Of a stretch of DNA of 64,000 bases, positions 30,814-33,971 are shown in pieces. Numbering within the stretch: position 1 is the stretch's first letter; each line of letters begins with the position of its first letter. Both the position numbers and the translations under genes were made by a program. A model generated the notes under the pieces. It was given only the letters and a program-made list of their open reading frames with translations, was not told where the DNA came from and did not search any database. The stretch is from a virus. The stretch spans positions 1 through 64,000 of IMG/VR virus record IMGVR_UViG_3300046616_000431, one strand, 5' to 3'.

Positions 30814-31803
30814 ATGACCGCAGCGCTCCACGCTGGGCACAAGGGCGGCGTCACCGCCAAGAAGTCCGACGACTACGTCAACGACATCCTCGCCCGCCGC
30901 GAGAGCCAGGGCCACGCCCCGCTCTCCACCCAGGCGAAGATGCAGCGCCTCCAGTCCGTCGTCTCCGACCAGACCAACGGCATCAAGCGCCTGGGCGTCG
31001 GCATGATCGGCCCCATCCAGTTGAAGCTCCGCTACCAGGGCATCACCCGGAACGTGCTGGTCGAGGACCCCTGCACCCCCGGCACACCGGTCGAGTACGA
31101 CGTGTGGGACGACCTCGGTCAGGCCTACATGATGTCCGGCACCGAGGGCGAAGTCCGCATCACCCCCTTCGAAGGCAAGCGCATCCAGGTGCGGTTCTTC
31201 CGCATAGCCTCGCGCCCCGCCATCCGCAAGGAAGACCTCCTCTACCTGCGCATCAACGCGGTCGAGCAGGCCCAGGACGAGACCAAGCAGGCCATCCTCA
31301 AGCAGGAGGACTCGCGCCTGATCACGATCCTCCAGGCCGCGATCTCGGACTACACCAACCGCTCCGACCACACGGTCACCCCCAACCACGTGGTCAACGA
31401 GGCGTCGGGCTACCTGACCCCGGGCTCGCTCTACAGCGCGGTCTCCCTGACCGACATGCACGAGCTGCAGTCCAGCCGCATCCTGATCAACCCGATGGAC
31501 TACCGCGACATGTACCGGTGGGACATCAACCAGACGGGCTGGGCCTTCAAGGACCGCGTCGTCGCGGGCGAGACGATCACCTCGTTCGGCGAGTTCCAGC
31601 TCCAGCGCTCCATCGTCGTCCCTCAGGGCGAGACCTACCTGACCCCGGACCCGCAGTTCCTCGGCGTCTTCCCGGTCCTGTACTCGCTCGATGTCGAGGA
31701 AAACCACCGCGTGGAAAGTTTCTGGAAGGGTTGGGTCTTCGATGAGATGATCAGCATGCTGATTTTGAATCCGCGCGGCCTCGCGAAAATCGTGAAGTCG
31801 TAG
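30814..31803 (+). CDS. Major capsid protein
   Basis: 329 residues; ribosome site AGAGGAA. Builds the icosahedral head, HK97-type fold inferred. Support: length, place after the decoration candidate and the protease, and a pattern with an N-terminal helical arm, EYDVWDDLGQAYMMSGTEGEVRITPFEGKRIQVRFFRIASRP (E-loop and P-domain-like) and DMYRWDINQTGWAFKDRVVAGETITSFGEFQLQRSIVVPQG. The last 100 bases use AT-ending codons (GAA, AGT, GGT, GAT, ATT, TTG, AAT, AAA) more than the rest. The C-terminus GLAKIVKS is repeated at the end of the next gene (GLGKIVKS). Confidence 0.85.
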   Translation: MTAALHAGHKGGVTAKKSDDYVNDILARRESQGHAPLSTQAKMQRLQSVVSDQTNGIKRLGVGMIGPIQLKLRYQGITRNVLVEDPCTPGTPVEYDVWDDLGQAYMMSGTEGEVRITPFEGKRIQVRFFRIASRPAIRKEDLLYLRINAVEQAQDETKQAILKQEDSRLITILQAAISDYTNRSDHTVTPNHVVNEASGYLTPGSLYSAVSLTDMHELQSSRILINPMDYRDMYRWDINQTGWAFKDRVVAGETITSFGEFQLQRSIVVPQGETYLTPDPQFLGVFPVLYSLDVEENHRVESFWKGWVFDEMISMLILNPRGLAKIVKS

Positions 31804-31831: not shown

Positions 31832-31878
31832 CGAAGGGCCGTAACTCAAGCCGCAACAGGCTGGGTTGCGGCCCTTCG
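31832..31878 (+). terminator. Terminator after the capsid gene
   Basis: CGAAGGGCCG pairs with CGGCCCTTCG (31832-31841, 31869-31878), extended by AAC/GTT in the stem. It separates the capsid gene from the nuclease. Confidence 0.8.
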
Positions 31879-31950
31879 TGCTGCTCGACAGCAACCCAGG
31901 CCTCTCGCAGCGACCCAACCAAGTGGTTCTCAACTAAATTGCTAAAAAAC

Positions 31951-32012
31951 GAGGGCTCCTCTAGACTTGCAGGTGTACCGGCCAAGGTGACACCGCCTCC
32001 AGAGGAGCCCTC
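31951..32012 (+). promoter_or_regulatory. Hairpin that hides the nuclease ribosome site
   Basis: GAGGGCTCCTCT (31951-31962) pairs perfectly over 12 bp with AGAGGAGCCCTC (32001-32012). The right arm contains AGAGGAG, the ribosome site for the GTG at 32014. A smaller GGTGT/ACACC pair lies inside the loop. Folding would block translation. Confidence 0.72.
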
Positions 32013-32013
32013 T

Positions 32014-33672
32014 GTGTCGAATGCTAATGCCAACCTCTACCGAGACCGCGCTGACGAGGTCGAGCGCCTCTTCGTGAACGAGCAGATGTCGGCCCCGAAA
32101 ATCGCTGAGCAGACTGGCGTCCCGGACTACCAGGTCCGCCTGCTGCTTAAAGAGCGCGGCCATGACCTCGCCAAGAGGCGCTCCCAGAAGGAGCTGCGCC
32201 TGCCGGAAGTCACGCCGCTCCTGGAGCAGCGGATGCCTCTCAAGGAGATCGCCAAGCAGACGTCGATCCCGTACGCCACCTTGCGCCGGTGGCTCCAGGA
32301 GGAAGGCATCGACACTGGCGCCAACGACCCGGACGCGACCCGGCGCGAACAGCTCATCGACGAGGTCGTGGCCCGCTACCAGAACACCCAGCCCGCCAAC
32401 ACCATCGCTGCCGACCTGGGGCTCTCGCACGGGACTGTCCTGCGGTGGCTGCACGAGCGCGGAATCGAGATCCGGCGAGCGCCACTCAAGCGCACCGCCC
32501 ACAAGAAGATCAAGCACCTCGACGAGGTGCTGAGGCTGCACCGCGAAGAGGGCAAGACGACCAGCGAGATCACCACCCTCGTGCCGGTCGCTCGGGGCAC
32601 CGTGGAAGCCTGGCTCCGAGACGCTGGAGAGAAGCCCCGCTATAGCACCCCCGCTCAGAAGAAGGCCGAGAGGGAGGAAGACCCCCGGCGTCAGATGGTG
32701 CTGTCCCTCTACCAGAGCGGCTCCACCTGGAAGCAGATCGTCGCCGAGGCTCACGTCGCGGAGACGACGGCGCGCGGCTGGGTTGCGGAGGCCGGAATCC
32801 AGGGGCAGGGTGGCAAGGCTGCGCGGGACACCAGAAAGCGCGCCGAGGCCCTGCGCCTGGCGCGCGAGGAGGACCTGCCCATCATGGAGATCTGCGCGGC
32901 CGTCGAGGCGAGTTACTACAAGGTTCGAGAGTGGCTGGACGAGGAGGGCGTACGCGTCCGCCAGCCCGGCGAGCGAACCCCCGACGGCATCCGCCGCAGC
33001 GCGCAGGGCGCCAAGGGCGGCCCGCGTGGTCGCCGCGCTACCAACCGGCCTGCTGCGCCTATCTCTCGTCGGCCGCGCAACCCCGTGCTCCCGCGCGAGT
33101 GCGCCGCGCCGGACTGCACCGAGACCTTCACGTCGCCCACCCGGAAGTACCACAACGACGAGTGCCGGGCGAAGTGGGCCAAGCGCCGCGAGGCCGACCC
33201 GAACAATCACGTCACCTACACCTGCCAGAACTGCAGTAATGAGTTCACCAGGCCGAGGTCCTCGGGCTCCTTCCGGTACTGCTCCAACGACTGCGCCCAG
33301 CGCCACACCAAGACGAAGCAGCACGTGGTGGTGGAGGACGCGGTGGTGCTGGACTCGTCGTACGAGACTCTTCTGTGGTCGCTGTGCCGTATCTACAAGG
33401 TTCCCGTGGAGCGCTACGACCGAGCTGGCGGAGTGGAGTGGCGTGAGGGCGGCTGGTACGCGCCGGACCTTCTGGTGGAGTGGCAGGGGCGCAGCGTGAC
33501 CGTCGAGACGAAGGGCCTTACCGACCCCGAGGACGAGGAGCGCTGGGCCGCGTTCCGCTCCCAGTCCGACGTCCCCCTGGTCGTCCTGACCCAGGCGGAG
33601 TTGGTGCCGCCTCCGGCCAGCCGCGAGGAGCTGCTGGATTTGCTGGGTCTGGGCAAGATCGTCAAGTCGTAG
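32014..33672 (+). CDS. HTH-array endonuclease with zinc fingers and PD-(D/E)XK domain
   Basis: 552 residues from GTG 32014 (AGAGGAG, seven bases upstream). Six helix-turn-helix units of about 50 residues occupy residues 10-310, each ending like YATLRRWLQEEGI, HGTVLRWLHERGI, RGTVEAWLRDAGE or TTARGWVAEAGI. Two zinc fingers follow (CAAPDCTETF...HNDEC and CQNCSNEF...CSNDC, about 364-427). The C-terminal nuclease has PDLLVEWQGRSVTVETKG (about 484-500), a PD-(D/E)XK site. Lying alone between the capsid gene and the next unit, it is probably a freestanding homing endonuclease. It is not of HNH, GIY-YIG or LAGLIDADG type. Confidence 0.82.
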   Translation: MSNANANLYRDRADEVERLFVNEQMSAPKIAEQTGVPDYQVRLLLKERGHDLAKRRSQKELRLPEVTPLLEQRMPLKEIAKQTSIPYATLRRWLQEEGIDTGANDPDATRREQLIDEVVARYQNTQPANTIAADLGLSHGTVLRWLHERGIEIRRAPLKRTAHKKIKHLDEVLRLHREEGKTTSEITTLVPVARGTVEAWLRDAGEKPRYSTPAQKKAEREEDPRRQMVLSLYQSGSTWKQIVAEAHVAETTARGWVAEAGIQGQGGKAARDTRKRAEALRLAREEDLPIMEICAAVEASYYKVREWLDEEGVRVRQPGERTPDGIRRSAQGAKGGPRGRRATNRPAAPISRRPRNPVLPRECAAPDCTETFTSPTRKYHNDECRAKWAKRREADPNNHVTYTCQNCSNEFTRPRSSGSFRYCSNDCAQRHTKTKQHVVVEDAVVLDSSYETLLWSLCRIYKVPVERYDRAGGVEWREGGWYAPDLLVEWQGRSVTVETKGLTDPEDEERWAAFRSQSDVPLVVLTQAELVPPPASREELLDLLGLGKIVKS

Positions 33673-33695
33673 GCCAGGCAGTACGCTTCAGCATG

Positions 33696-33735
33696 ACGGC
33701 CCCCTCTCGGTACGAACGAGAGGGGGCCGTTGCGT
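33696..33735 (+). terminator. Hairpin terminator after nuclease
   Basis: A perfect 13-bp stem ACGGCCCCCTCTC / GAGAGGGGGCCGT (33696-33708, 33718-33730) followed by TGCG. Confidence 0.85.
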
Positions 33736-33816
33736 GCCCACGTGCCCCTAGGAGTGGGCGCCATTTCCCCGGCTACGGGTCTCTGGCCGCGCGGGCGGAC
33801 GGCCAGACCTCGTGAG

Positions 33817-33842
33817 CCCCTCACTCCTAAGGGAGTGAGGGG
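33817..33842. other. Strong hairpin in the gap after the nuclease
   Basis: CCCCTCACTCC pairs with GGAGTGAGGGG (33817-33827, 33832-33842) around TAAG; outer GTGA/TCAC bases extend it. No T run follows. It may be a terminator or part of an untranslated RNA. Confidence 0.6.
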
Positions 33843-33971
33843 TCACTCGATGGCGCGCCTTTGGCTGGTCATCTCGGCGGGTGACATGTTCTCACCCTGA
33901 CACATTCTCAGCACGATGTGTAGTCGATCAGGTCAATTCCGTGTTCCCCCGAATGAATTCGGCCACGCCTG
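33843..33971. other. Gap without a gene
   Basis: No reading frame here has a ribosome site and normal codon use. TCTCACCCTGACACATTCTC gives a loose repeat of a TTCTCA motif. Together with flanking hairpins and two bipartite elements it makes a 430-base control region before the 34161 gene. Confidence 0.4.

Follow-up and report, generated by a model that had tools for sequence, protein, structure and literature searches.

The window analyzed here is a stretch of 64,000 nucleotides, positions 1 to 64,000 of the 112,362-base virus record IMGVR_UViG_3300046616_000431. Behind its major capsid protein (MCP) gene lies a gene for a 552-residue predicted nuclease, found as a single copy in the record, and the two genes end in nearly the same peptide. 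This text concerns that nuclease gene and the altered MCP gene end beside it, which together probably form one mobile cassette. The nuclease open reading frame (ORF) begins with GTG at exactly the coordinates given in a first-pass annotation of the letters; an alternative start is possible at the TTG at 31939. The features of the locus are as follows.

30814..31803, + strand: MCP gene, host gene of the element, ending ...NPRGLAKIVKS-stop (PHROG_2522 major head protein, E 3e-106)
31761..31803, + strand: recoded MCP 3' end, presumed left part of the element, its left border uncertain by ~10 codons (by analogy with phages RedWattleHog and Stormageddon, below; codon identity of the family to nuclease-less relatives falls across the last 11-15 codons)
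31832..31878, + strand: hairpin 3' of the MCP stop, probably a terminator carried by the element (inverted repeat I3; intergenic DNA unmatched in the relatives compared)
31951..32012, + strand: inverted repeat I5, 93% complementary, with the nuclease start codon just after it (inverted-repeat analysis)
32014..33672, + strand: nuclease gene, 552 residues (ORF list, Pfam, AlphaFold2)
33646..33672, + strand: original MCP 3' end, captured (GGTCTGGGCAAGATCGTCAAGTCGTAG) and translated as the nuclease C-terminus GLGKIVKS-stop (repeat D2 of 31777-31803; colinear with nuclease-less locus L024; shuffle test)
33696..33730, + strand: hairpin 3' of the nuclease gene, counterpart of the post-MCP hairpin in nuclease-less relatives (inverted repeats, alignment of relatives)

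The nuclease gene behind the capsid gene

The window MCP shares up to 59% identity with the MCPs of Ceeclamvirinae and of Gordonia and Rhodococcus phages. A group I intron or an intein was considered and rejected, as the MCP ORF is complete upstream of the nuclease and no Rfam match was obtained at E up to 1. A sigma-70 promoter scan found none. Hairpins like that at 31951-32012 also lie shortly before or around the nuclease start in RedWattleHog, Bread, L085 and L029 (L numbers denote loci in our comparison).

The MCP of the window ends in GLAKIVKS and the nuclease in GLGKIVKS, a match that none of 300 shuffled tails reached. Over the last 27 bases, it is the nuclease 3' end, rather than the window's own MCP end, that lies closer to the MCP ends of nuclease-less relatives in five of six comparisons: 21 versus 17 identities with L012, L019 and L024, which are mutually identical here, and 20 versus 18 with L026 and L022. 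The sixth, L016, ties at 23 each. Moreover, positions 33646-33907 are colinear with the MCP end and downstream DNA of the nuclease-less L024 (E 5e-11), and the DNA that now follows the window MCP gene has no match among the relatives compared. The first-pass annotation had already directed attention to the MCP 3' region as the target, but had seen neither the recoding and capture nor the C-terminal repeat shared by nuclease and MCP.

Recoded and captured capsid gene ends

The Gordonia phages RedWattleHog and Stormageddon provide an occupied and an empty version of this site, differing there by a nuclease gene homologous to that of the window. The insertion in RedWattleHog lies within the last codons of the MCP gene; the MCP stretch of the two phages is nearly identical and their downstream DNA is 100% identical over 425 nt. 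The Stormageddon MCP gene ends AAC GCA CGC GGT CTC ATC ATC CTG CGC AAG TCC TAG, and that of RedWattleHog ends AAC GCC AGG GGC CTG ATC ATC CTT CGG AAA TCC TAG, which encodes the same protein. The Stormageddon-type end, ATCATCCTGCGCAAGTCCTAG, sits in frame at the 3' end of the RedWattleHog nuclease gene, where it supplies the C-terminus and the stop. The last MCP codons of RedWattleHog are synonymously recoded, and the original 3' end has been displaced into the nuclease gene. Between the two borders of the insertion, the empty site has ten bases, ACGCGGTCTC, which may mark the cut site.

The C-termini of MCP and nuclease match in three further settings, each with its own cognate tail: KIVKS in the window, LASITKS in L085 and IATITKTP in L111, beside IILRKS in RedWattleHog. 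The right border of L085 aligns at 94% with the MCP end of L066, a nuclease-less locus. In L068 and in L084/L087, a second MCP tail lies further downstream and is not fused to the nuclease. Phage genomes are mosaic, and illegitimate recombination might have placed a nuclease behind the MCP gene by chance, with the tail match a coincidence or a short duplication; indeed, the match in the window taken alone covers just eight codons. However, the recurrence of the match with different tails in four phage types, and its exactness at the DNA level in the occupied/empty pair, make such an accident scarcely credible. Alternatively, the captured peptide could be functional on the nuclease, for example as a guide into the capsid, since it is the MCP's own C-terminus and in frame in all four types. 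This is extremely unlikely, as Bixzunavirus and L020 either draw the tail from untranslated DNA or lack it, so that it is dispensable there.

Nine Bixzunavirus phages have MCP bodies that are 99.5-99.9% identical, with the last 36 nt at 69-100%. Phages sharing the 5' half of the nuclease gene, which encodes the DNA-binding half, also share the MCP tail (96.6% versus 82.3%, permutation p 6e-4), and this DNA-binding half has been exchanged between near-identical phages. In ArcherS7, which has no nuclease, the DNA corresponding to the final 40 nt of the Bixzunavirus nuclease gene is intergenic, so that the right border in this group lies beyond the MCP stop. ArcherS7 may represent the ancestor or a loss state, both being compatible with its AGG codons (see below). 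Tonenili retains a nuclease remnant only, and the nuclease gene of L023 is interrupted, as expected for elements gained and lost over time; alleles of all three kinds, empty, truncated and interrupted, occur.

Codon usage was compared across non-redundant loci, 38 with the nuclease and 45 without. The Arg codon of the NPRG motif is AGG or AGA (AGR) in 26 of the 38 and in 10 of the 45 (p 5e-5), AGR accounting for 2.7% of Arg codons in MCP bodies, and MCP tail codons are rarer overall (p 6e-8); because the loci share ancestry, both p values are indicative. When occupied loci are paired with their closest empty relatives, synonymous codon identity drops from 0.81 to 0.42 in the MCP tail.

Domains and family of the nuclease

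The domains of the window protein are listed below, all on the + strand.

32035..32163: helix-turn-helix (HTH) unit 1 (AlphaFold2 and six-unit profile)
32191..32310: HTH unit 2 (AlphaFold2 and six-unit profile)
32329..32466: HTH unit 3 (AlphaFold2, fold search and six-unit profile)
32494..32631: HTH unit 4 (AlphaFold2 and six-unit profile)
32659..32799: HTH unit 5 (AlphaFold2 and six-unit profile)
32815..32952: HTH unit 6 (AlphaFold2 and six-unit profile)
33100..33165: degenerate zinc finger, C363, C368, C384 (alignment of relatives)
33223..33294: zinc finger C404-C407-C423-C427 (invariant in 26 relatives)
33346..33603: PD-(D/E)XK nuclease domain with E451, PD484-485 and E498-x-K500 (alignment, fold and profile)

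The first-pass annotation had read the protein as six HTH modules, two zinc fingers and a PD-(D/E)XK domain. AlphaFold2 predicts six consecutive three-helix HTH units (residues 10-47, 63-96, 106-148, 163-203, 224-259 and 268-310), in agreement with the first of these claims. A profile made from these units detects the full set of six in the window protein and 0-4 in relatives, Pfam HTH_23 matches four stretches (E 8e-21), and unit 3 resembles, in a fold search, HTH domains solved with DNA, such as those of DeoR and Fis. Only one of the two fingers is clear, with C404/C407/C423/C427 in the pattern C-x2-C...C-x3-C; the other is degenerate (C363-x4-C368 ... C384). Across 26 relatives, E451, P484-D485 and K500 are invariant and E498 nearly so. 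The annotation had named two observations that would count against it, a predicted structure lacking HTH repeats and homologues that had lost the PD-ExK residues; neither was made.

As HTH matches dominated the fold search with the whole protein, the nuclease domain was folded separately. Modelled with 26 aligned sequences, it reached a mean pLDDT of 90 and showed a core alpha-beta fold of PD-(D/E)XK topology. Its best fold matches are mostly PD-(D/E)XK enzymes (Bax1, TnsA, I-Bth0305I, VRR_NUC and Hjc at Z 6.4-7.8; I-Ssp6803I at Z 5.5), every Z lying below 8, so that the assignment relies on residues and topology jointly. A profile of the domain matches T7 endonuclease I (E 3e-5) locally, over the 44 positions of the PD...ExK active-site segment only. 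With both the residue motif E...PD...(E/D)xK and the core fold present in alignment and model, we assign the protein to the PD-(D/E)XK nuclease superfamily. The EDxHD (Vsr-like) class was rejected because the residues invariant among the 26 relatives are PD...ExK, despite a similar fold. The HNH class, suggested by PHROG annotation, was also rejected: the nuclease part has no Pfam HNH match, and the window's match to PHROG_1271 lies mainly in the finger region. The catalytic fold is shared with I-Bth0305I (EDxHD, Z 7.4) and I-Ssp6803I (PD-(D/E)XK, Z 5.5), two nucleases that belong to intron contexts; unlike these, the window nuclease is not associated with an intron.

With the Bread nuclease protein as query, homologues were found in 141 phage records, annotated as Holliday junction resolvase, HNH endonuclease or hypothetical protein. 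When IMG/VR was scanned with nuclease-only alignments, the gene lay directly 3' of an MCP gene in 23 of the 25 loci examined, and the two loci without an MCP gene are not family members. A scan of 84,980 bacterial and archaeal species genomes yielded no relative, and the plasmids searched gave none either. The family is large, and its members have between zero and six HTH units, zinc fingers often taking the place of the array. The HTH-array nuclease pictured in the first-pass annotation is real in its array, and it is one member of this family.

The public annotations, together with the matches to the T7 endonuclease I profile and to Hjc folds, raise the question of whether the protein is a Holliday junction resolvase, or another housekeeping nuclease, that lies in the head gene cluster by chance. 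T7 endonuclease I is a structure-specific resolvase and has neither an HTH array nor fingers. A housekeeping role is very unlikely for a gene that is absent from close relatives with a clean empty site, whose DNA-binding half is swapped among near-identical phages and whose presence is linked to recoding of the neighboring gene.

Three annotations and ORFs in or near the family may be mentioned here. In NuevoMundo, gp106 (L003 4707-5648) is the nuclease mis-annotated as major capsid protein, and the true MCP, gp105, is annotated as hypothetical. In L029, 1149 nt behind the MCP stop, a 154-residue ORF 3' of the nuclease gene is apparently HTH-rich and has no nuclease domain; it is perhaps a detached DNA-binding part. 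An annotated homing endonuclease of Vibrio phage SD25 (L004 3992-5446), adjoining head and tail genes, resembles the window HTH array in its N-terminal part and differs in its C-terminal part.

A probable homing cassette in an essential gene

We consider it very likely, from sequence comparison, that the element is a freestanding PD-(D/E)XK homing endonuclease cassette seated in the last MCP codons, with a recoded copy of its target that should protect its carrier from cutting. Two traits of homing endonucleases are present: occupied and empty alleles at a fixed site (RedWattleHog/Stormageddon, Bixzunavirus and the colinear junctions) and an insertion that alters the presumed recognition site in its carrier (the RedWattleHog MCP end and the family trend). 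This reading draws on the recoding in the occupied/empty pair, the cognate tails in four phage types and the colinear right junctions of the window and L085. It draws further on the position behind the MCP gene, the AGR excess, the co-segregation of tail and nuclease in Bixzunavirus, the invariant active site and nuclease matches, and the empty, truncated and interrupted alleles. The alleles, the location and the intact active site support the suggestion of the first-pass annotation, a freestanding homing nuclease that directs a modular HTH array at the 3' region of the MCP gene.

From this anatomy and the family resemblance, we infer a homing cycle of the following kind. When an uninvaded phage infects the same cell, the HTH array and zinc finger(s) would bind its MCP 3' end, which the C-terminal domain would cut. 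The break would then be repaired from the occupied genome, with the MCP body as homology on one flank and the downstream DNA on the other, and the cassette would be copied in. The cassette brings a synonymously recoded MCP 3' end, by which the capsid protein stays the same and the DNA target is altered; the recoded end should escape cutting. The displaced original end stays at the right border as the last in-frame residues and stop of the nuclease. In relatives inserted slightly further downstream, as seen in Bixzunavirus, untranslated MCP 3' sequence takes that role.

Several observations weigh against this interpretation. Synonymous codon identity between one empty locus and another also falls in the MCP tail, from 0.83 to 0.61, so that recoding is not limited to occupied loci, and the nuclease-less ArcherS7 also carries AGG codons. 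The MCP tail may simply be fast-evolving or drifting; the divergence at empty loci may also stem from past invasions or from the action of other nucleases there. For the window itself there is no near-identical empty relative, and the MCP proteins of the closest relatives lacking the nuclease are ~90% identical. Finally, pairwise dN/dS spreads from 0.16 to 0.96, and constraint is thus not strong throughout.

A different purpose for the same cut is possible but rather doubtful: the nuclease could be an interference weapon, excluding competing phages by cutting their capsid gene, with its own spread secondary. The target gene is essential, the carrier's copy is recoded and the same site is occupied by several nuclease types, all of which would suit such a weapon. 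However, interference involves the same cleavage as homing, and the two are inseparable on sequence data.

The nearest analogues of the proposed homing cassette come from fungal mitochondria, where mobile endonuclease ORFs give genes new C-termini, in Glomus atp6, atp9, cox2 and nad3, Allomyces atp6 and Rhizopus atp9 (PMC3630166). There too, an endonuclease ORF is inserted toward the 3' end of an essential gene and brings a divergent copy of the gene's end that completes it, while the native end is pushed downstream (PMC3630166). The fungal nucleases, however, are of the LAGLIDADG or GIY-YIG type, with longer inserted ends apparently from other species (PMC3630166), whereas the phage cassette carries a PD-(D/E)XK nuclease with HTH or finger arrays, and its displaced end forms, in frame, the C-terminus of the nuclease. 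The phage cassette works like these ORFs but, its nuclease being unrelated, is not one of them. Freestanding phage homing endonuclease genes, T5orf172 and others, also show beads-on-a-string DNA-binding domains, shuffling and locations near essential genes including capsid genes (PMC10448857); they have other nuclease domains, and that account does not mention recoding of neighboring gene ends. In mycobacteriophage Omega, insertion of an HNH gene altered the lysin A 3' end (PMC3706429), so that here too a neighboring gene gained a new 3' end through a nuclease insertion. Unlike in our case, the nuclease is HNH and the change was described as a loss of 35 bp, ascribed to repair errors or a distant donor context (PMC3706429). 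In the open-access literature, with few subscription journals included, we found no report of recoding combined with in-frame capture in phages.

We lean, by a modest margin, toward a broader proposal of self-immunizing cassettes, in which each DNA-binding array, of HTH units or zinc fingers, travels with its own silently recoded target, and in this way nucleases of several unrelated types contend for the 3' ends of essential phage genes. A second example occurs at another gene. RedWattleHog alone of the pair has an HNH endonuclease-annotated gene directly 3' of its ribonucleotide reductase gene (L002 5701-7122, compared with L005 5079-6098 in Stormageddon), and the two reductase genes differ at 3 positions in the first 820 nt and at 30 in the last 164, the protein being mostly kept. 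By this comparison, the reductase gene is a second recoded gene end beside a nuclease of unrelated type.

If the homing reading is correct, a homing nuclease can invade the coding sequence of an essential phage gene with neither intron nor intein and at no cost in protein sequence, because it supplies a recoded end. An abrupt synonymous change at a gene end would then be a readable footprint of homing sites, whether active or past, and naturally occurring HTH and finger arrays would come paired with candidate target sequences. The occupied/empty phage pairs grow in laboratory hosts, which makes these ideas directly testable.

Other possible nucleases also lie behind MCP genes with recoded tails at some loci where the family nuclease is absent. 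L051 has a NUMOD4-HNH gene on the minus strand ~550 nt behind the MCP gene, a significant match, and L083 has a LAGLIDADG-like ORF, below the cut-off, 31 nt behind it.
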